A stretch of 34,250 nucleotides of DNA, from NCBI GenBank assembly GCA_017440045.1, contig JAFSIA010000055.1, positions 1 through 34,250 on the forward strand. Reading direction: 5' to 3'. A program made the translations under genes and the position numbers. This document shows positions 4,185 through 33,236 of the stretch, piece after piece. A model generated the notes under the pieces. That model saw nothing but the letters and a program-made list of their open reading frames with translations. It searched no databases and had not been told where the DNA came from. Every line of letters begins with the position of its first letter. The first letter of the stretch is position 1. The DNA comes from Lachnospiraceae bacterium. GTDB lineage: Bacteria > Bacillota > Clostridia > Lachnospirales > Lachnospiraceae.

Positions 4185-6641
4185 ATGAAAAAATTACTTT
4201 TAAAAATAGGAACGTCAGTTATTGCATTTATAGGCGTTTTAATAGTATATTTCGTGTCTATTTATGAGACTAATGAAGACAGCGAACAGGTTATGCAGTC
4301 TGCGACACTGCCAATTGTAAATATGGTATATCAGGATGCTAATATAAATATGCTTCAAGGTTATACCACATATATGGATGGAAAGTATATGCGAGATTGT
4401 ATAACACCGTTGGATGAGCAGAGAACATTAGGCGTAAATATACGAAGATATGGCAATGTTATTGCCACTATGTCATATGAGATTAGAAGCTTGGATACCG
4501 AGAGACTTATCGACAAGCAGAATATCGAAAAGTTTGTTACATCGGGTGATAATATATATGCGACAATAGATGTCAGCAATATTGTAGAAAAGGATACAGA
4601 GTATCTTTTGATTATTGAACTGGTATCAGAAAAGCATGGAAATATATATTATTATACTAGAATTGAGGAACAAACTCAGTCGGATATAAAGGAGCATATT
4701 GATTTCGTCAGTGCCATGAGCATAAGCTCTCTTGATGATAATGCGGCGATGGATTTTCTTCCTTATCTTGAACCTAGCAGCTTATCAGATAGTACTAATC
4801 TTGGATATGTAAATATAAAGTCAAGTTTTTCAAGCTTTACCTGGGGTGATTTGAAAGTATCCAGGGTAACAGAGCCGATGGTAACAATTAAGGAAATTCT
4901 TGATGATTTTGGAAGCTACGAGCTTCAGTATAAGGTAATGGCCAGCAATGAATATGGCATTGCCCAATATTACAACGTTACTGAATACTACCGAATAAAA
5001 AAGAACGGGGATGTTATGTATCTTTACGTTTATGAGCGAAAGATGGAGCAGATTTTAGACGGAAGAAATCATAACGTATCGACAACCCGTATAAATCTGG
5101 GTATTGATAGTGATTTGACTGTAGATTATTCGTATAGTCCTAGAGGGAATTATGTAAGCCTGGTCAAGGAGAGAAATCTCTGGCTTATGGATATGTCAAA
5201 AAATCAGATAATAAATGTGTTCTCATTTGAGAGTGGTAGTGACAATGATGTGCGAGATGTCTTTGATGAAAATGACATAGAGATAATATCTACGGATGGA
5301 GATGGAAACGTTTTATTCATAGTATATGGTTATATGAATAAAGGTGGACATGAGGGAAAAGTAGGAACAGCTCTTTACAGGTACGAGAGAGAGTCTAACA
5401 AGGTAACTGAGCTGGCATTTGTGCCATCTACGAAACCATTTTATATTTTAAATGAATCCATGGGCAAATTTGCTTATATAAAAGATGATAACCTTTTATA
5501 TCTGATGATAGATGATGCTATTTACACAGTTACCTTCGATAGTAACGAGTATGTTCAGCTGGTATCAGGCCTTAAAAAAGGAAATTATATTATAAGCGAC
5601 GATAAGAACATTATTGCATGGCATGAAAACACAACAATTGATAATGCTGATTCCATTCGAGTTATCAATATTAAAACAGGCGATGACTATATAATAGAAG
5701 CAGCAGAAGGCGAGTATATAAAGGCAATAGGATTTATTGAACATGACCTTATATATGGAGCTGCAAAGCAGTCGGATGTATATGTTGACCAGATTGGTGA
5801 TACAATTTTTCCAATGTATAAGCTAAGTGTTATGTTAGAGTCTAAAGAAAATGTGGAAAGCTATCAAAAGGAAAATATCTATGTATCAGATGTGTCCATA
5901 GAAGGAAATATGTTGAAGCTTAAGAGAATGTCCAAGGATGAAAATGGCAGCTTCGTAAATATTGAAGATGACCAGTATATTAACAAGAACGTATCTGCCA
6001 ATTCAATAGTTGAGCTAAGTATTATTGCAACAGACTTAAAAAAGAAGGAGCTAATACTAGAGTTTGCATATACCATTACGTCTGAGAATGAGCTGGAGAA
6101 GCTGGTGCCGGATGAGATAGCATTTATTCAGGGAAATTCCTTTGAACCAATAAAGGATGAAAATCCGGATATGAATCTGTATGTATATGCAGATGGTGAG
6201 CTGGAGCTAGTAACAGAAAAGCTATATGAAGCCATAAATACTGCATACGAAAATTACGGAGTAGTCATTGATGGTAATGGTAATTATGTGTGGGCTAGAG
6301 CTGGTAAGGTTAATAGTGTAGGAATTGATATGAAGTATATGGTGGGTCAGGGTTACGACTCATTTGATTTGGCAGCTGACATATGGGATGGCTCAGTTCT
6401 TGATGTGTCAAAAGCACACTACGATACAATGTTTTACTATGTTACAAACAGAATGCCGGTACTCATTATGGTTGATGATTATGGACTTGTATGTGTGGAT
6501 GGCTATAATGGATATCAAGGTGCTGTCGGTACAGTATATATGACTGATTTGGATACAGGAATAGAATTTGATATGGGATACTATGAGTTAGAAAATATAT
6601 ATAACGATAGTGGTATGAGATATATGGTTCTTGGAGAGTGA
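4185..6641 (+). CDS. Large membrane-anchored extracytoplasmic protein of unknown function
   Basis: An 818-residue protein starting at ATG 4185 behind AGAGGA. Residues 1-8 are basic and 9-27 form one hydrophobic segment without a lipobox cysteine. The rest is therefore predicted to sit outside the membrane, held by an uncleaved N-terminal anchor. The exterior part is acidic and tyrosine-rich. It contains repeated beta-strand-turn motifs such as YSPRGNYVSLVKERNLWLMD and STDGDGNVLFIVYG, which suggest a beta-propeller of the WD40/TolB sort from about residue 300. That fold is inference. No catalytic motif was recognised. It stands in its own interval ahead of a bidirectional terminator. Codon use is relaxed and AT-rich, like the neighbouring unknown genes. 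Confidence 0.7.
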   Translation: MKKLLLKIGTSVIAFIGVLIVYFVSIYETNEDSEQVMQSATLPIVNMVYQDANINMLQGYTTYMDGKYMRDCITPLDEQRTLGVNIRRYGNVIATMSYEIRSLDTERLIDKQNIEKFVTSGDNIYATIDVSNIVEKDTEYLLIIELVSEKHGNIYYYTRIEEQTQSDIKEHIDFVSAMSISSLDDNAAMDFLPYLEPSSLSDSTNLGYVNIKSSFSSFTWGDLKVSRVTEPMVTIKEILDDFGSYELQYKVMASNEYGIAQYYNVTEYYRIKKNGDVMYLYVYERKMEQILDGRNHNVSTTRINLGIDSDLTVDYSYSPRGNYVSLVKERNLWLMDMSKNQIINVFSFESGSDNDVRDVFDENDIEIISTDGDGNVLFIVYGYMNKGGHEGKVGTALYRYERESNKVTELAFVPSTKPFYILNESMGKFAYIKDDNLLYLMIDDAIYTVTFDSNEYVQLVSGLKKGNYIISDDKNIIAWHENTTIDNADSIRVINIKTGDDYIIEAAEGEYIKAIGFIEHDLIYGAAKQSDVYVDQIGDTIFPMYKLSVMLESKENVESYQKENIYVSDVSIEGNMLKLKRMSKDENGSFVNIEDDQYINKNVSANSIVELSIIATDLKKKELILEFAYTITSENELEKLVPDEIAFIQGNSFEPIKDENPDMNLYVYADGELELVTEKLYEAINTAYENYGVVIDGNGNYVWARAGKVNSVGIDMKYMVGQGYDSFDLAADIWDGSVLDVSKAHYDTMFYYVTNRMPVLIMVDDYGLVCVDGYNGYQGAVGTVYMTDLDTGIEFDMGYYELENIYNDSGMRYMVLGE

Positions 6642-6905: not shown

Positions 6906-7736
6906 CTATTTTTCAACCAGTGAAAGCTTTTGTAAAGCTCTCTTGGCAATAATCTTTTTAAAGTGTTCTTTGAAATAAACTTCACCTGCCGCAGTAAATT
7001 TGGCAGCAGTACCGTACTCTGAAAGTATGTTGCATACTTTGTTAAAATCTTCAACAGATTGAGTACCTTTGTTTATACATAAGTAGTAAATGCCTTCTTG
7101 TGGTGATTTGTACAAAGAATTGGCACCATTATACATCTCTGTAAGCTTCTTAGCAACGCTGATAATGGAATCAAGCTCTTTAAAAGCATATATCTTTACG
7201 ATATTTTTAGGCGTAGTGTTCACAACCTTAGGAGCTTCTTTTTCCTTTGAGACAACTGGCGCAGAGTTAGCCTGCTTTTTGGCCAGTGCCTGAGGGAATG
7301 GAATGAAGTTGTCACCAGTACCCTCCACAGCGTTCTTAAGCTCTGTCTTAAGATGGTTAAATAAATCCAATAAGTCGCTGGCTGACTGACCTGTTGAAAG
7401 AGAGTTTCCTTCGTCATCGGCTGGTTCATCACCATCTATTTCGTCCATAGAAGGGGCAAATCTTGAGAAACGTGTGTCAAGCTCCTCAGGATCTTCAACC
7501 TTTGTAATAACAAGGACAATGCAATCCCCAGAAACAGGGATGGCTTCTATCATAAGAGGAATATCCTCGGCCTCAAATCCAAATTCGTTTGATGCCTGTT
7601 GCATCATGTCACGAAAAAGACTTTTTGCTTTCTCTGTGCCGTACGCCAGCTCGCTAAGCTTTATCTGTCTTGAAGCCAAATCCGACCTATTCAAAGTACA
7701 CTTTATTTGATTGTCATTGATTTTTTCAATTTTCAT
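6906..7736 (-). CDS. mecA: MecA-type adaptor protein for ClpC
   Basis: A 276-residue protein of two domains. The N-terminal domain begins [20 protein letters not shown] and contains the [20 protein letters not shown] and [14 protein letters not shown] signatures of MecA. It is followed by an acidic, low-complexity linker (about 105-175). The C-terminal domain ([14 protein letters not shown] to the end) in known MecA proteins binds ClpC and promotes its hexamer assembly, delivering substrates for proteolysis. In Bacillus the substrates include ComK. The target in this organism cannot be read from the window. A promoter is visible upstream on the minus strand. Confidence 0.93.
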
Positions 7737-7833: not shown

Positions 7834-7862
7834 TTGAAAAATATACCAGATGTGTTTATAAT
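7834..7862 (+). promoter_or_regulatory. Putative sigma-A promoter of the kinase operon
   Basis: TTGAAA (7834-7839) and a perfect TATAAT (7857-7862) are separated by 17 bases. The predicted start near 7869 gives a leader of under 20 bases if ATG 7887 is used. It is divergent from the mecA promoter. Confidence 0.65.
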
Positions 7863-7886
7863 TACTAAAGAGGTTTTTCAAGCTGT

Positions 7887-9356
7887 ATGTACTTGTCGGA
7901 AGGAGAAGGAACCGTACAAATTACATTATTTGAAAAATACAAGGTAGTCGATGTTGTTTATGAGTCTGACACCACTGCCGTTTATCTGGTAGAACATCTC
8001 AGTATGTTATCCAGGAGAATTATAAAAAAGATTCTCAAAAAATCTATACATCAAAGCAGTTTTTATTCCGAGATAAATATTCTTAAAACTATTAGACATC
8101 CCAGTATTCCAGTTATATATGATATAGAGGAAGATGCTAGTGCATATTATATTGTTGAAGAATATATGGAAGGCACAAATCTCTATGATTATGTTTTGGA
8201 AAAGGGAACATTGTCTTTGGAGGAAGCTTCATTTATCGGATGTAAAATCTGCGAGATTGTAAATTATTTGCATAGTCATAAACCTATACCTATTCTATTT
8301 TTGGATATACAGCCAAAAAACATTCTTATTAACAATGATAAAGTCTATCTGGTGGACTTTGGAAGTTCGTATTATGCTGACGAATCAGACAAGAGGCGGT
8401 TTTTGTTTGGAACAGTAGGTTATGCTGCACCTGAGCAGTATCGTTATGAAAAATTAGACCAGCGAACTGACATATATGGTATAGGAGCAGTGCTTTATTT
8501 TATGATTACAGGCCAGGCTTGTGAGCATAAAGGCACTAATTCTTTAAAATTTCCCAATAATATTTCAGGAAAATACAAAATGATTGTCTTGCAATGCTTG
8601 TGCGTTGACAGTGAAGAGCGTTTTGTCTCTGTCAGTGTCATTGAGAAGAATTTGCAGGAGATATTATCAAAAGACAATGCATATAGCAATGAAAATAAAC
8701 CTCTAAATATCTATATTGTAGGAGCTCAAAGTCGAGTTGGAACAACACATATAAGTCTTGCATTAGCTTCATATTTGGCAAATGTGGGAAAATCAGTTGT
8801 CTATGAGGAGTGTAATGCTTCTAATCATTTGCGGCTTCTTGCCAAGGAAAGAAAGCTTGATTACAAAGGTGGTTTTTTTAGAGAGGGAGCTCTGCTATTA
8901 AAACCGGAGTATGGTCCGCAGGTAAAGCTGCAGGTATCGGCAGATGTTTTGATTAAGGATTGTACAGGAGTGGAAGCTTCGGATATAAACCCCAATGATA
9001 TTATTTTGCTTATCTTGGGCACAAAGCCGTGGGAGTTAGACAATTCTATAAAAAAATATACAGAGCTGTCAGAGGTAAAAGAATCTGTAGGGTGCAAGCT
9101 GATAGTTCTTTCAAACCTTGCGTCAAAGGGCAAATCTTTAGCTTTATGGAAGAGCATAGAAAGTGTAGGATTGGAAATTCCATATATGGATGATGTGTTT
9201 GTTGAAGGCAATATAGAAAAAGAATTTTTCCAAGGACTTATGATGGAGCTTGGATATAGTCAGGGAGGTGAATTAAATAAAAAGAAAACAAGGTTATTTA
9301 GAAGAGCTTCGAAGAAAGCAAAGAACAATAGTAATAGGAGTAATGGGCCTTCATAG
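7887..9356 (+). CDS. Serine/threonine protein kinase fused to a degenerate ParA/MinD-like P-loop domain
   Basis: A 489-residue two-domain protein. Residues 15-260 are a eukaryotic-type kinase. It has a candidate ATP lysine at 47/48, Glu62 in helix C, a catalytic loop FLDIQPKN with Asp140 and Asn145, DFG at 157-159, APE at 181-183 and TDIYGIG at 194-200. The glycine-rich loop is not recognisable, and the usual Lys of DxKPxN is Gln. Residues 273-450 resemble a ParA/MinD domain (NIYIVGAQSRVGTTHISLAL, then SVVYEECN). The P-loop has Thr where the catalytic Lys belongs, so ATP hydrolysis is doubtful. There is no membrane segment. The C-terminal 28 residues are basic and low-complexity and overlap the next gene. 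ATG 7887 has only a weak ribosome binding site. An alternative is initiation near ATT 7920, behind GGAAGGAGAAGG. Confidence 0.8.
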   Translation: MYLSEGEGTVQITLFEKYKVVDVVYESDTTAVYLVEHLSMLSRRIIKKILKKSIHQSSFYSEINILKTIRHPSIPVIYDIEEDASAYYIVEEYMEGTNLYDYVLEKGTLSLEEASFIGCKICEIVNYLHSHKPIPILFLDIQPKNILINNDKVYLVDFGSSYYADESDKRRFLFGTVGYAAPEQYRYEKLDQRTDIYGIGAVLYFMITGQACEHKGTNSLKFPNNISGKYKMIVLQCLCVDSEERFVSVSVIEKNLQEILSKDNAYSNENKPLNIYIVGAQSRVGTTHISLALASYLANVGKSVVYEECNASNHLRLLAKERKLDYKGGFFREGALLLKPEYGPQVKLQVSADVLIKDCTGVEASDINPNDIILLILGTKPWELDNSIKKYTELSEVKESVGCKLIVLSNLASKGKSLALWKSIESVGLEIPYMDDVFVEGNIEKEFFQGLMMELGYSQGGELNKKKTRLFRRASKKAKNNSNRSNGPS

Positions 9357-9888
9357 AGGAGCTGGGGTTACTTCTATGTCTGTATCTATTGCAAATTATC
9401 TAGTAGCTTTTCTAAAAAAGAGAGTGGCCGTTTGTGAGTGTAATGGAAGCAGAGATTTCATTAAGGCTAAGGATAAGCTTGTGGGTATGGATTGGCATGG
9501 TGATAATACATTATCCTTTTCATACGGAGGCTGTGATTATTATCCTAAGGGTGCTGTAAATGAGATGGATATTAATGCAGAAAATTATCACATTGTTATA
9601 AAAGATTTTGGAACGGATGGCGTGATAAAAGATGATTTTTTAAGGTGTGATCACAAAATGATTGTCAGCTCATTATATCCATGGATGTCAAAAAAATTGG
9701 AAACTTTTTATGATAAGGCAGATTCCTATGCTGGCAGTGATACATGGCTTTATGTTCTGGCAGGAAGTCATGAGCAGATAAAAGCAGAGCGTAAAAAACA
9801 TAGTATATACGCAGTGGTGAGACCATATATAGAAAATCCGCTTGTCATAGACAGTGGCTTAGTTGATTTTTTTGAAGCCTTGTTTTAG
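9343..9888 (+). CDS. Second degenerate P-loop (ParA/MinD-like) protein; start uncertain
   Basis: The ATG at 9343 gives 181 residues but begins in the middle of the P-loop (GLHRGAGVTS). The expected first beta strand (TIVIGV) is encoded just upstream in the same frame. That frame is open back to a TAA at 9274. A very strong GGAGGTGA (9264-9271) lies six to nine bases before ATA 9277 but faces no ATG, GTG or TTG in this frame. The ATG 9343 itself has AGGAG only two bases away. The real start is therefore probably upstream, or arises by frameshift from the kinase gene. The P-loop has Val in place of Lys. The strand after it (VAVCECNGS) parallels VVYEECNAS in the kinase fusion, so the two domains look paralogous. 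Function is unknown. Confidence 0.65.
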   Translation: MGLHRGAGVTSMSVSIANYLVAFLKKRVAVCECNGSRDFIKAKDKLVGMDWHGDNTLSFSYGGCDYYPKGAVNEMDINAENYHIVIKDFGTDGVIKDDFLRCDHKMIVSSLYPWMSKKLETFYDKADSYAGSDTWLYVLAGSHEQIKAERKKHSIYAVVRPYIENPLVIDSGLVDFFEALF

Positions 9889-9896
9889 GAGGAAAT

Positions 9897-10517
9897 ATGA
9901 CACTTATAAGAGGCAAAAAAAGAAAGATGGCAACGACAGCTTTGGCTGTGGGTGCAGGTGTATTTCTCATTGTTGTAGTAGCTATACTTGTGAGCATAAA
10001 CAATCATAAGGAGCCGGTGGAAAAAACGATAACCACGGTACATAGAGAAGATGAGTCAAGTGAAGTTCATATGTCAGAAGAAGCGACTACAGGTGAGGCT
10101 GTGGTGGAAGAGCTAAGGGAATACTATATTGATTATGTCAATGTGGCCAAGGGTCAACAGGTTACAACTCTCTGCGATATTAGGATTCATTTTCCTAACG
10201 GAGAGGATTTTATAGTAGTTTCCGGCAAGGAAATCACAGGTCAAACAGACGAAGGATTTTTTGCATTTCTCGATGAGAGGGAAGTGCATATGATATCGTC
10301 TGCAAGGACAGATGTGGAGGTGTACGAGGGTGCATATCTATATCTGGCTGTTTACAAAACTGAATATGATAAAAAAACTAAAGCCAATTATCCGTGGAAT
10401 GTGTACGTTATATCTTCTTATGGATTGTCTGAGGAGGATGCAGAAGATGTATACAACAGACGCATTTTGCTAGAGGAGAACTTATTGGCATTTATGAACA
10501 AAGCATTAGAAAAATAA
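9897..10517 (+). CDS. Single-pass membrane protein, third gene of the kinase operon
   Basis: A 206-residue protein with an excellent AGGAGG ribosome binding site, eight bases after the previous gene. A short basic N terminus (RGKKRKM) precedes one hydrophobic segment at about 13-32, then an acidic linker rich in Glu, Ser and Thr (about 35-75). An alpha/beta domain follows (YYIDYVNVAKGQQVTTL, then NYPWNVYVISSYG). Predicted topology is a cytoplasmic N terminus with the domain outside. No family was recognised. Tight spacing implies it works with the kinase and the P-loop protein, for instance as sensor, anchor or substrate; that is inference. Confidence 0.7.
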   Translation: MTLIRGKKRKMATTALAVGAGVFLIVVVAILVSINNHKEPVEKTITTVHREDESSEVHMSEEATTGEAVVEELREYYIDYVNVAKGQQVTTLCDIRIHFPNGEDFIVVSGKEITGQTDEGFFAFLDEREVHMISSARTDVEVYEGAYLYLAVYKTEYDKKTKANYPWNVYVISSYGLSEEDAEDVYNRRILLEENLLAFMNKALEK

Positions 10518-10798
10518 ATACGCAGTAGGATTATGTGGACATTTAATTCATCACAGATTTATTGGCATAATTTTACCGACATTAATTGTTGATTATAAAA
10601 GTAAAAGAAAGGAGAATGAGGATAAAGAAAAATTATTGATTTAAGATTTTAAGATAAATGTAACTATTAATTTGATTTTATTCTGCATGGAGGAAATAAA
10701 AAACGGAAAACATAACAATAATATAAGAGAAGATTTACAAACAGCAAACAAAAAAGAAAAATAAAGAAAACTGGCCGTGCAGAAATGTGCGGCCTTTT
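10518..10798 (+). other. Intergenic stretch without a supported gene
   Basis: This stretch is very A-rich and contains no convincing coding region. A 25-codon ATG frame at 10687-10764 has no ribosome binding site. A possible TTTACC/TATAAA pair near 10570-10600 and the strong terminator at its end make a small transcript possible. It may equally be a long 3-prime untranslated region of the kinase operon. Confidence 0.4.
10773..10798 (+). terminator. Rho-independent terminator
   Basis: A nine-pair stem, GGCCGTGCA (10773-10781) with TGTGCGGCC (10786-10794), includes two G-T pairs and is capped by a GAAA tetraloop. TTTT follows directly. It lies 12 bases upstream of the next promoter, separating the kinase operon from the GH18 gene. 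Confidence 0.88.
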
Positions 10799-10810: not shown

Positions 10811-10839
10811 TAGACTTGAAGAAACGGATTTGGTATAAT
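10811..10839 (+). promoter_or_regulatory. Extended -10 promoter of the GH18 lipoprotein gene
   Basis: TAGACT (10811-10816), a 17-base spacer and a perfect TATAAT (10834-10839) preceded by TGG form a good extended -10 promoter. An in-frame TTG at 10816 lies inside it, which argues against that codon as the translation start. Confidence 0.75.
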
Positions 10840-10872
10840 GTCCAGTGGAATTTCTATTTGGAGGTAGGATTG

Positions 10873-12627
10873 TTGATTTTTGGAAATAGAGTAAAGAAAA
10901 TATCTATATTGGCAATGGTTGGAGCTCTTGCATTGAGCATTGGAGCATGTAAATCAAAGGAAAACACAGAATATGCTGATTTGGAAAGTTATTTTGAAAT
11001 AGAGCAGGTTGGTCAGTATGACGGTGCGGCAGTAATCGTGGATGGAAGACTGTCAGGCGCAGGCTTTGTAAAAGATGGTTATTATTATATAAATTATCAG
11101 ACAGTAAGAGAAAAGATAGATGATCATTATTATTTTGATGAGACGGAAAAAATATTGACATATGCCTCATCAAAGCATATATATGACGCTGTGTCAGGTC
11201 AGCTGACATACACAGAAGACGGCAAAGAGAACACAGCAGGTACAGAGCCGGTTCTGTGGGTGGACGAGTCAGCATATATTAGCATAGATTACATTAAGAT
11301 AATGAATGGCGGTATATTATCTGAGACATACAGTGAGCCACATAGAGTTGATGTCAAAGTAAATAATCAGGTGACTTTGGCAAAGACCACAGAAGCTACA
11401 GTTTTAAGAACGGATAAGGGTGTTGGCTACCCTATTGTGGCTGATATTTCAAAGGATGCAGAGCTCTACATTGTAAGTGATGGCGACACTTGGACCAAAG
11501 TATGCAATGGAGACGGAATAATGGGCTACATTGAAAATGGTAAACTGGGAGAGTCGTACGAAAAAACATGGACCCTCGAAAAGTCGTGGGTGGAGTATGA
11601 GCCATACACATATCTTACAATGGATGAAAAAGTTTGTCTCGGCTGGCATCAAATGGAGTATGAAGGAGGCAATGATTCATTAAGCAGCCTTATAAAGGGT
11701 GCAGATGGCTTAAATGTTATATCTCCAACTTGGTTTGAAGTCACTGATATCTATGGTGGTATAAGTTCTTTAGCTTCAAAAAACTATGTTGATAAAGCAC
11801 ACAAATCAGGAATTCAGGTATGGGGACTTATAAGTGATTTTGTTTTTGGTGAAGATGGAAATAGCTTAGTTAATAAAGCCTTATCCGTTACGTCATCAAG
11901 AAGAAAGCTTATTGGTAACATTATGGAAGAAGCTGCCGCCTGTGGAATGGATGGCATAAATATTGATTTTGAGAATATCAGACGAGTATATGTAGAGGGT
12001 TATATTCAGTTTATTAGAGAATTAGCCATAGAATGTGAGTCAGCAGGTCTTGTGTTATCTGTAGATATGTATGTGCCAAGAGAAGATAATCAGTATTACG
12101 ACAGGGAGTCAGTTGGCGAGGCTGTAGATTATCTTGTTATAATGGGTTACGACGAGCACTGGGCCGGATGTAATCAGGCAGGAAGTGTTGCCTCACTACC
12201 ATATGTGACAAATGGCATAACAGACACTCTGCTGGAGGTACCGGCATCAAGAGTTATAAATGCCATACCGTTTTTTACAAGAGTATGGTATGAGGATTCG
12301 CTGGAGAATGCGCCAGATGGAGCCGTTATAGTTGAGGATGCCATAAATGGTGACTATGCTTTGAGTAGCAAGGCATATGGTCTGGAAACAGCAAGAAAGC
12401 TTTTGGAGGACAACGGTGCAAACATTGTCTGGCTTGAGGATTTAGGGCAGCATTATGGTGAATATTACGCTGACGGACGACTTTCCAGAATATGGCTTGA
12501 GGATAAAACATCCCTCACAGCTAAATTAAATGTTATGAAATCCAATAATCTGGCTGGTGTTGCCTGCTGGAGACTAGGTCTTGAGTCGCCGGAAGCCTGG
12601 GAAGCAATTGGAGAATTCTTAAAGTAA
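10873..12627 (+). CDS. Lipoprotein with SH3-like and glycosyl hydrolase family 18 domains
   Basis: I place the start at TTG 10873 (584 residues), eight bases after GGAGG; TTG 10870 is equally possible. The N terminus is a lipoprotein signal peptide ending in LALSIGAC, so the protein should be lipid-anchored outside the membrane. A copper-amine-oxidase-like or stalk-type region (about 35-150) is followed by a bacterial SH3-like segment (YIVSDGDTWTKVCNGDGIMGYI). A GH18 barrel occupies the C-terminal 370 residues. The catalytic motif is intact (MDGINIDFENI, the DGxxxDxE pattern), and YDEHWAG and WRLGLE follow. The closest known architecture is that of spore or cell-wall N-acetylglucosaminidases such as SleL/YaaH. 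The likely substrate is peptidoglycan or chitin-like glycan. Confidence 0.85.
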   Translation: MIFGNRVKKISILAMVGALALSIGACKSKENTEYADLESYFEIEQVGQYDGAAVIVDGRLSGAGFVKDGYYYINYQTVREKIDDHYYFDETEKILTYASSKHIYDAVSGQLTYTEDGKENTAGTEPVLWVDESAYISIDYIKIMNGGILSETYSEPHRVDVKVNNQVTLAKTTEATVLRTDKGVGYPIVADISKDAELYIVSDGDTWTKVCNGDGIMGYIENGKLGESYEKTWTLEKSWVEYEPYTYLTMDEKVCLGWHQMEYEGGNDSLSSLIKGADGLNVISPTWFEVTDIYGGISSLASKNYVDKAHKSGIQVWGLISDFVFGEDGNSLVNKALSVTSSRRKLIGNIMEEAAACGMDGINIDFENIRRVYVEGYIQFIRELAIECESAGLVLSVDMYVPREDNQYYDRESVGEAVDYLVIMGYDEHWAGCNQAGSVASLPYVTNGITDTLLEVPASRVINAIPFFTRVWYEDSLENAPDGAVIVEDAINGDYALSSKAYGLETARKLLEDNGANIVWLEDLGQHYGEYYADGRLSRIWLEDKTSLTAKLNVMKSNNLAGVACWRLGLESPEAWEAIGEFLK

Positions 12628-33141: not shown

Positions 33142-33236
33142 CTCTTATTCAGAGTGGTGGAGATACAAGGATCTATGAAGCCCGGCAACCCCGATAAGGA
33201 AGGTGCCAACCTGAGCGAAAAGTCGAACAATAAGAG
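33142..33236 (+). ncRNA. SAM-I (S-box) riboswitch
   Basis: The first stem pairs CTCTTATT at the start with AATAAGAG at 33229-33236. Inside are the S-box core elements: AGAGTGGTGGAG, the kink-turn block ATGAAGCCCGGCAACC (33175-33190) and GGTGCCAACCTGA. The aptamer binds S-adenosylmethionine. With the terminator at 33256 it should switch metK off when SAM is plentiful, a feedback loop on the enzyme that makes SAM. Confidence 0.96.

Follow-up and report, generated by a model that had tools for sequence, protein, structure and literature searches.

A kinase–ParA fusion module in a Lachnospiraceae genome, probably the detached head of a divergent Tad-like operon

Gene organization of the locus

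The subject of this study is a three-gene operon, K-P2-M3, in a 34,250-nucleotide stretch of DNA (the window; contig JAFSIA010000055.1) from a Lachnospiraceae bacterium draft genome (own genome, G000; 74% complete, 68 contigs). The open reading frames (ORFs) are as a preliminary description of the window had them: a Ser/Thr kinase fused to a ParA-like domain (K, with its ParA-like domain called KP), a second ParA-like protein (P2) and a single-pass membrane protein (M3). The features are listed in Table 1. Loci are numbered Lnnn, genomes Gnnn and contigs Cnn, and the genes that accompany the three in relatives are denoted E (a CpaF-class motor), Z (a third ParA-like protein), F (a platform candidate) and S, T and U (small single-pass proteins). 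Gene calls were mechanical, and transmembrane (TM) helices were counted by crude hydropathy.

Table 1. Features of the K-P2-M3 operon and its flanks, in window coordinates
Feature	Position	Strand	Basis
Sigma-70-like promoter TTGAAA-17-TATAAT, ahead of the operon	7834..7862	+	11/12 matches
K, Ser/Thr kinase domain and ParA-like (TadZ-like) domain	7887..9356	+	ORF, 489 aa
Kinase domain of K	7980..8636	+	Pfam Pkinase and residue check
KP, ParA-like domain of K, P-loop GAQSRVGTTH at 8721-8750	8685..9242	+	Sequence, P2 profile
Shine-Dalgarno-like AGGGAGG inside K, ahead of P2	9262..9268	+	Read from sequence; relatives
P2, TadZ-like ParA-like protein, putative ATA start, overlaps K	9277..9888	+	Open frame, relatives
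P2 P-loop GLHRGAGVTS	9346..9375	+	Sequence
M3, single-pass membrane protein, SAF region missing	9897..10517	+	ORF, 206 aa; homologues
Terminator-like hairpin after M3	10773..10794	+	Hairpin scan
mecA homologue, divergent neighbour, landmark outside the system	6906..7736	-	Pfam, relatives
GH18 protein, downstream landmark	10816..12627	+	Pfam, relatives

The promoter that the preliminary description placed ahead of the operon scores well, but such sites are no commoner in the region than in shuffled sequence (15 against a shuffled mean of 13.0), and the same applies to terminator-like hairpins (1 found, shuffled mean 1.4). Counted from its first ATG, the P2 ORF would span 9343-9888; its first β-strand, TIVIGV, lies upstream of 9343, and the start must therefore lie upstream as well. 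The frame is open from 9277, directly after an in-frame TAA (9274-9276), and holds no ATG, GTG or TTG between there and the first β-strand. The Shine-Dalgarno-like site precedes an ATA codon at 9277, and ATA occurs at the matching place in three relatives of the same genus (L025, L026 and L027), which also carry an in-frame GTG touching the Shine-Dalgarno-like site. On this comparison, ATA at 9277 is a possible start, with about 16 residues ahead of β1 and no receiver-like domain. A programmed frameshift joining K and P2 was considered and rejected, as P2 is read in the +1 frame relative to K, out of reach of a -1 slip at the A-rich stretch.

Homologous operons and the companion locus

A search with P2 found homologues in 21 of 61 genomes, own genome included. 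Lachnospiraceae-like loci usually have the order mecA (divergent), K, P2, sometimes M3, then a GH18 gene; one locus, L094, has K without P2. L039 and L038, from other families of the order, instead carry a single operon K-P2-M3-Z-E-F-S-T-U, where a gene for a 204- or 231-aa protein separates M3 from Z and the motor E matches PF00437 just above the cut-off. Similar operons occur at L121 (kinase fused to P2), L122, L123, L124, L126 and L127, and at L125 and L138 a ParA domain without a kinase occupies this place. The gene order claimed in the preliminary description is thus conserved across relatives. The independence from pilus machinery that it had supposed is not supported: homologues lie in Tad-like operons, an outcome that it had itself named as refuting.

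At L039 mecA and gh18 enclose the whole operon, at the site where the window has its three genes. The L039 motor has a homologue in own genome at G000:C59 (51% identity), where a companion locus, L066, comprises Z-E-F-S-T and a weak U in the L039 order, all in open frames that align over the length of this motor half. The window therefore holds one half of an operon whose other half lies elsewhere. The absence of adjacent Tad genes, as first described, holds for the window and fails for the genome as a whole. The motor is also present in all seven other genomes of the genus (G001-G007).

The E profile finds CpaF structures as its best matches (8rkd, 2.6e-14; 9e24, 4.3e-14), and the L066 motor scores 28.4 bits with PF00437 (cut-off 24.9) and 46.5 bits with TIGR03819, far under the cut-off of 373. 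F of L066 is one protein with 6-8 TM helices by the crude count. The N-terminal hydrophobic helix of S, judged by eye from an alignment, is pilin-like, and no leader is visible ahead of it. Scans against Pfam and NCBIfam gave no match over the cut-off for P2 and M3 of the window, nor for Z, F and S of the companion or L039 locus. No Pfam match to a Flp pilin or an A24 prepilin peptidase was found in the eight L039 proteins from M3 to U, nor in Z, E, F and T of L066, with S of L066 scanned in NCBIfam only; we therefore call the divergent locus Tad-like and not a Tad system.

The arrangement of kinase and ParA-like domains varies. Paenibacillus, Saccharibacillus and Alkaliphilus have a fusion of the kinase with just one ParA-like domain, of P2 type, and the window's order mostly has kinase-KP together with a separate P2. 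The loci L037, L041, L109 and L114 lack KP and have P2 itself joined to the kinase, and at L074 the P2 slot is filled by a 350-aa protein with an extra N-terminal part, for which a single-sequence search of solved structures gave no match. Beside the motor half, large proteins of 1009-1561 aa with one TM helix by the crude count are encoded at L070 (14059-18744), L071 (1618-4773), L072 (13880-16909; DUF5704 domain, 2.3e-30) and L079 (14664-17831); they are candidate surface or tip proteins.

The ParA-like domains

A family profile built from 22 P2 sequences finds the ParA/Soj structures 3k9g (1.7e-5) and 1wcv (2.8e-4). The same profile matches the C-terminal domain of K, which no Pfam model names, at 6.9e-15, and P2 and KP are therefore paralogues. 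In a quick tree with long branches the two fall together on one side of a branch against the Z group, with a Shimodaira–Hasegawa-like approximate likelihood ratio (SH-aLRT) support of 99. The paralogy proposed in the preliminary description is thus upheld, along with the matching EECNAS and CECNGS strands and the absence of the Walker A lysine from both P-loops.

This lysine is absent from all 117 P2 sequences (two more being gapped at the site), all 71 KP domains and all 95 Z sequences, the Z alignment being less sure than the others, and it is retained in 100 of 100 distinct E sequences. Its loss throughout the aligned P2, KP and Z sequences makes it a family feature and not decay in own genome. 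A histidine follows the P-loop threonine (G-x-T-H) in 95 of 117 P2 and 59 of 71 KP sequences; in the window, K has this motif (GTTH) and P2 does not (GVTS). Chromosome or plasmid partition by a ParA protein was rejected in view of the lysine-less P-loops across the aligned family and the pilus-type operon context in relatives.

Distribution of the head and the motor

Named genomes scanned with the E profile gave at least 484 relatives, of which the best 80 were retained. Eleven of these have less than 6 kb of sequence upstream. Among the other 69, with at least 6 kb, 38 combine an M3 homologue with a kinase-ParA fusion in one operon, many of them close Paenibacillus species and hence not independent. 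In one the kinase is a separate ORF, two encode ParA and M3 but no kinase, 15 encode M3 alone, and the remaining 13 (seven of them titled Lachnospiraceae) encode none of these.

Within the window's family we used a set of 200 genomes, 199 at least 85% complete plus own genome. A strong P2 (E-value up to 1e-15) occurs in 62 and the motor in 28: both in 27, motor only in one (G160), P2 only in 35 and neither in 137. At 1e-3 the P2 search reaches 119 genomes, the extras over 62 probably being other ParA proteins. In 25 of the 27 genomes with both, P2 and the motor lie on separate contigs. Both mecA and gh18 flank K-P2 in 24 of these 25, and gh18 alone does so in the remaining one (G036, L044); the separation is therefore real and no artefact of a fragmented assembly. 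In the order set outside the family, searched at a P2 cut-off of 1e-9, both occur in 23 genomes, motor only in five and P2 only in seven. There the two lie within 15 kb of each other in 21 of the 23, the exceptions being G056, with both near contig ends, and G378, a 580-contig draft.

M3, searched for in 71 genomes picked for the presence of P2 or E, occurs with the motor in 28 of 29 genomes. Fisher values for these associations are 3e-15 and 1e-12 and ignore relatedness. On a kinase tree of 62 rows the motor changes state at least seven times, and the two independent pairs that are well supported mostly agree with M3 (1.8 of 2 on average). Seven of the eight genus genomes have P2, and in these K and P2 are open frames. 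P2 persists in 35 genomes that lack E, which shows that the pair can be retained in the absence of this motor; the motor-less K-P2 loci mostly stand at the same mecA-gh18 site.

The kinase domain and M3

Pfam Pkinase matches K at 3.7e-37 over residues 32-250. The window kinase retains the VAIK lysine, the αC glutamate, the HRD aspartate, the asparagine, DFG and APE, and has YESDTTAV in place of the glycine loop. The preliminary account of the catalytic residues, which listed Asp, Asn, DFG and APE as kept and the glycine loop as missing, was correct as far as it went but incomplete: the HRD arginine is replaced by leucine and the catalytic-loop lysine by glutamine (FLDIQPKN).

Among 49 kinases from outside the family, the HRD arginine is kept in 46, the first loop glycine in 45, and the aspartate, catalytic-loop lysine, asparagine and DFG in all 49. 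The 30 family kinases from genomes with the motor keep the HRD arginine in none, the lysine in 22, the asparagine in 25, DFG in 30 and the first glycine in 18; for the 32 from genomes without it the corresponding numbers are 1, 15, 22, 19 and 24. In 13 of these 32, DFG has become DFD or DFN, and the VAIK lysine (31/31), αC glutamate (31/31), HRD aspartate (32/32) and DFG aspartate (32/32) are invariant. Judged from these residues, the kinase appears intact in most members outside the family and eroded within it, and activity of the window kinase is doubtful. The counts suggest a tie between kinase erosion and motor loss; independent pairs lend it no support, and we do not claim it. Searched with K, own genome yields one other kinase, on C30 beside PP2C, whose size and neighbours, judged by eye, mark it as an ordinary PASTA-type kinase with no relation to the module.

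M3 has one TM helix near its N-terminus and a conserved domain, DIRIxFPNGEDYIV, that was unnamed in the Pfam and NCBIfam scans. A SAF domain, absent from the window protein, is present in the L039 homologue (PF08666, 24.8 bits, cut-off 21), and the M3 profile matches the FlgA structure 3frn at 1.1e-6. A SAF domain and one TM helix beside a CpaF-class motor are the CpaB/RcpC arrangement. M3 is thus a homologue of the SAF-domain, CpaB/RcpC-like proteins of the Tad-like operon. The earlier suggestion that the kinase acts on M3 is unlikely on topology: going by the TM position and the positive-inside rule, the cytoplasmic tail would be about 10-12 residues long and the Ser/Thr-rich linker would lie outside.

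Comparison with known systems

K and P2 resemble TadZ/CpaE in having a ParA/MinD-type domain with a deviant Walker A motif, encoded in an operon beside a CpaB-like gene and a CpaF-class motor. They differ in carrying a kinase domain (K) or nothing (P2) where TadZ has a receiver-like domain, in the lysine-less G-x-T-H P-loop, and in being two paralogues, not one, in most loci of the window's order. M3 shares with CpaB/RcpC the single N-terminal TM helix, the envelope-side domain and, in relatives, the SAF domain, with a weak TIGR03177 CpaB match at L070 (15.3 bits, cut-off 71); the window protein differs in lacking the SAF domain.

A separate canonical Tad locus is present in own genome (C7, L051), with a T2SSE gene (199 bits), two T2SSF-like genes (34.1 and 23.7 bits; cut-off 25.2), a Flp1-like pilin and an A24 peptidase. 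Its TadZ resembles 3fkq (4.2e-7), listed in the PDB table as 'NtrC-like two-domain protein', which we take to be E. rectale TadZ. The divergent locus is like it in having a T2SSE-family motor and a TadZ-like ParA protein, and unlike it in its T2SSE score of 28 bits, its one long platform candidate and the lack of a recognised Flp pilin or peptidase. Two further T2SSE-family genes, at G000:C53 (457 and 157 bits), are read as PilB/PilT type.

TadZ is described as having an atypical Walker A motif, binding ATP with low ATPase activity, and serving as an early polar hub that recruits other parts (PMC6668835). In a published model, dimers of CpaE, a protein with an atypical receiver domain, encircle the CpaF hexamer, and the receiver domains may link one dimer to the next (PMC13170226). 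RcpC assembles into a periplasmic dodecamer (PMC12307814). Some CpaE/TadZ proteins lack the lysine, though this is not the rule: the Liberibacter CpaE P-loop is KGGVGSS, likewise lysine-less (PMC8513845). Among the open-literature papers listed we found no description of a kinase-TadZ fusion, the nearest being Garrett et al. 2024 (PMC11217815); subscription papers were mostly outside the scope of the search, and novelty is not proven.

Neighbouring genes and other features

The mecA and gh18 genes that flank the module are a stable pair. Of 32 genomes picked as lacking a strong P2, 29 have a strong GH18 match, and in 25 of these mecA lies divergent within 4 kb of gh18, at a median gap of 877 bp. 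We therefore treat the two genes as landmarks. The recurring order mecA-K-P2-(M3)-gh18 had raised the idea that the module works together with GH18 or MecA; we rejected it, as the pair stays adjacent without the module.

Small proteins of 72-91 aa are encoded between P2 or M3 and gh18 at L034 (8929-9204), L035 (10126-10347) and L029 (10914-11132). Upstream of mecA, the window encodes an 818-aa protein on the + strand (4185-6641) with an N-terminal TM helix and no Pfam match over the cut-off; it is conserved at this place in L025, L026 (cut at the contig end), L027 and L029. A SAM riboswitch (RF00162, 66.7 bits) lies on the + strand at 33142-33236, near the window end.

Discussion

The operons of relatives, the companion locus with its CpaF-class motor, the P2 and M3 profiles, the co-occurrence of P2 and M3 with the motor, and the lysine-less P-loops of the ParA-like parts against a motor that keeps the lysine together argue that K, P2 and M3 probably form a head detached from a divergent operon, Tad-like (type IVc-like), for a pilus or a secretion machine. 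The best reading of K and P2, by analogy, is as TadZ/CpaE-type placing proteins with a kinase in place of the receiver domain, and the positioning role raised in the preliminary description is the most likely family function. As TadZ/CpaE-type proteins, K and P2 would form nucleotide-binding, poorly hydrolysing dimers at the membrane, which may assemble into a placing ring that places and gates the motor. The kinase would sit where TadZ has its receiver domain, and an intact one could phosphorylate machine parts or P2 and so switch assembly; in the window's genus the eroded kinase may be weak or act as a scaffold. M3 would be an envelope-side alignment protein, reduced in the window to its C-terminal part. 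Within this mechanism, switching by phosphorylation, the substrates involved and a KP-P2 pairing are our inferences.

Several observations weigh against a pilus or secretion head. The window M3 has no SAF domain. The match of P2 to own genome's canonical TadZ is weak (hhalign E-value 7e-5, probability 63), and that TadZ keeps its lysine (P-loop GKS). Among the 62 P2 genomes of the family set, 35 are without this motor and K-P2 persists there; conversely, the motor occurs with no convincing P2 in G160 and in G001, a member of the window's genus, and with no strong P2 in five genomes outside the family, and a second search of G001 and the motor-only genomes gave weak ParA matches or none. M3 is missing in 6 of 34 motor genomes and G021 has M3 without the motor; one motor genome, G022, is counted as such on a 283-aa fragment. 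With only two independent pairs well supported, the motor-M3 association is unable to reach significance. F, considered as a possible TadB-TadC fusion, has no similarity to the canonical TadB/TadC candidates (hhalign probability 5.1 and 0.3), and its halves show none to each other.

Some of these points would suit a K-P2 pair that has left the pilus machine as a free-standing positioning or signalling switch, with M3 and the motor as optional partners. P2 is present in 35 of the 172 motor-less genomes of the family set, mostly at the mecA-gh18 site, and the motor-less kinases still conserve the VAIK lysine, αC glutamate, HRD aspartate and DFG aspartate. We consider this rather unlikely, given that 27 of 28 motor genomes in the family have P2, that outside the family the two lie within 15 kb in 21 of 23 genomes, and that the motor-less kinases are often altered (DFD or DFN in 13 of 32), although the last has no independent link to motor loss. 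The split operon, the reduced M3, the kinase without glycine loop, HRD arginine and catalytic-loop lysine, and the odd P2 start could also mark the module as a decaying remnant of a Tad-like head with little function. That K and P2 remain open in the seven of eight genus genomes having P2, and that the motor half of own genome is open and aligned over its full length, makes such decay improbable.

Membership in a type VII secretion system (T7SS) has one locus to recommend it. In G049 (L033, L075; G049:C2:147000-180900), a 618-aa kinase-P2 fusion sits with WXG100, DUF4176, an FtsK/EssC-type ATPase and PP2C, and Garrett et al. 2024 (PMC11217815) describe T7SSg and T7SSh loci beside Tad genes and kinases in T7SS clusters, so that kinase, phosphatase and Tad genes near T7SS genes recur in both. 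The kinase-like TshM of those loci differs in having a C-terminal TM helix and is not described there as fused to ParA (PMC11217815). The G049 cluster also holds a Tad-like gene set (L075), and there is no T7SS gene among the scanned window proteins, the other loci not having been searched for T7SS genes; we regard this assignment as very improbable.

In a broader and tentative scheme, which we hold to be possible but not the expected outcome, Firmicutes would possess a widespread Tad-like machine whose placing protein bears a Ser/Thr kinase in place of a receiver domain, with phosphorylation, not a receiver signal, gating pilus assembly; Lachnospiraceae would have duplicated the pair, uncoupled it from the machine and often kept it after motor loss as a lysine-less G-x-T-H positioning switch.

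Such a machine would connect signalling by a Ser/Thr kinase with the way ParA-type proteins position pilus machines, and it gives a testable function to genes that are unnamed in the libraries. The split operon explains the missing pilus genes beside the module in gut Lachnospiraceae. Finally, the fused operon, the split operon and the head without a motor form a natural series in which the role of the head alone could be tested.

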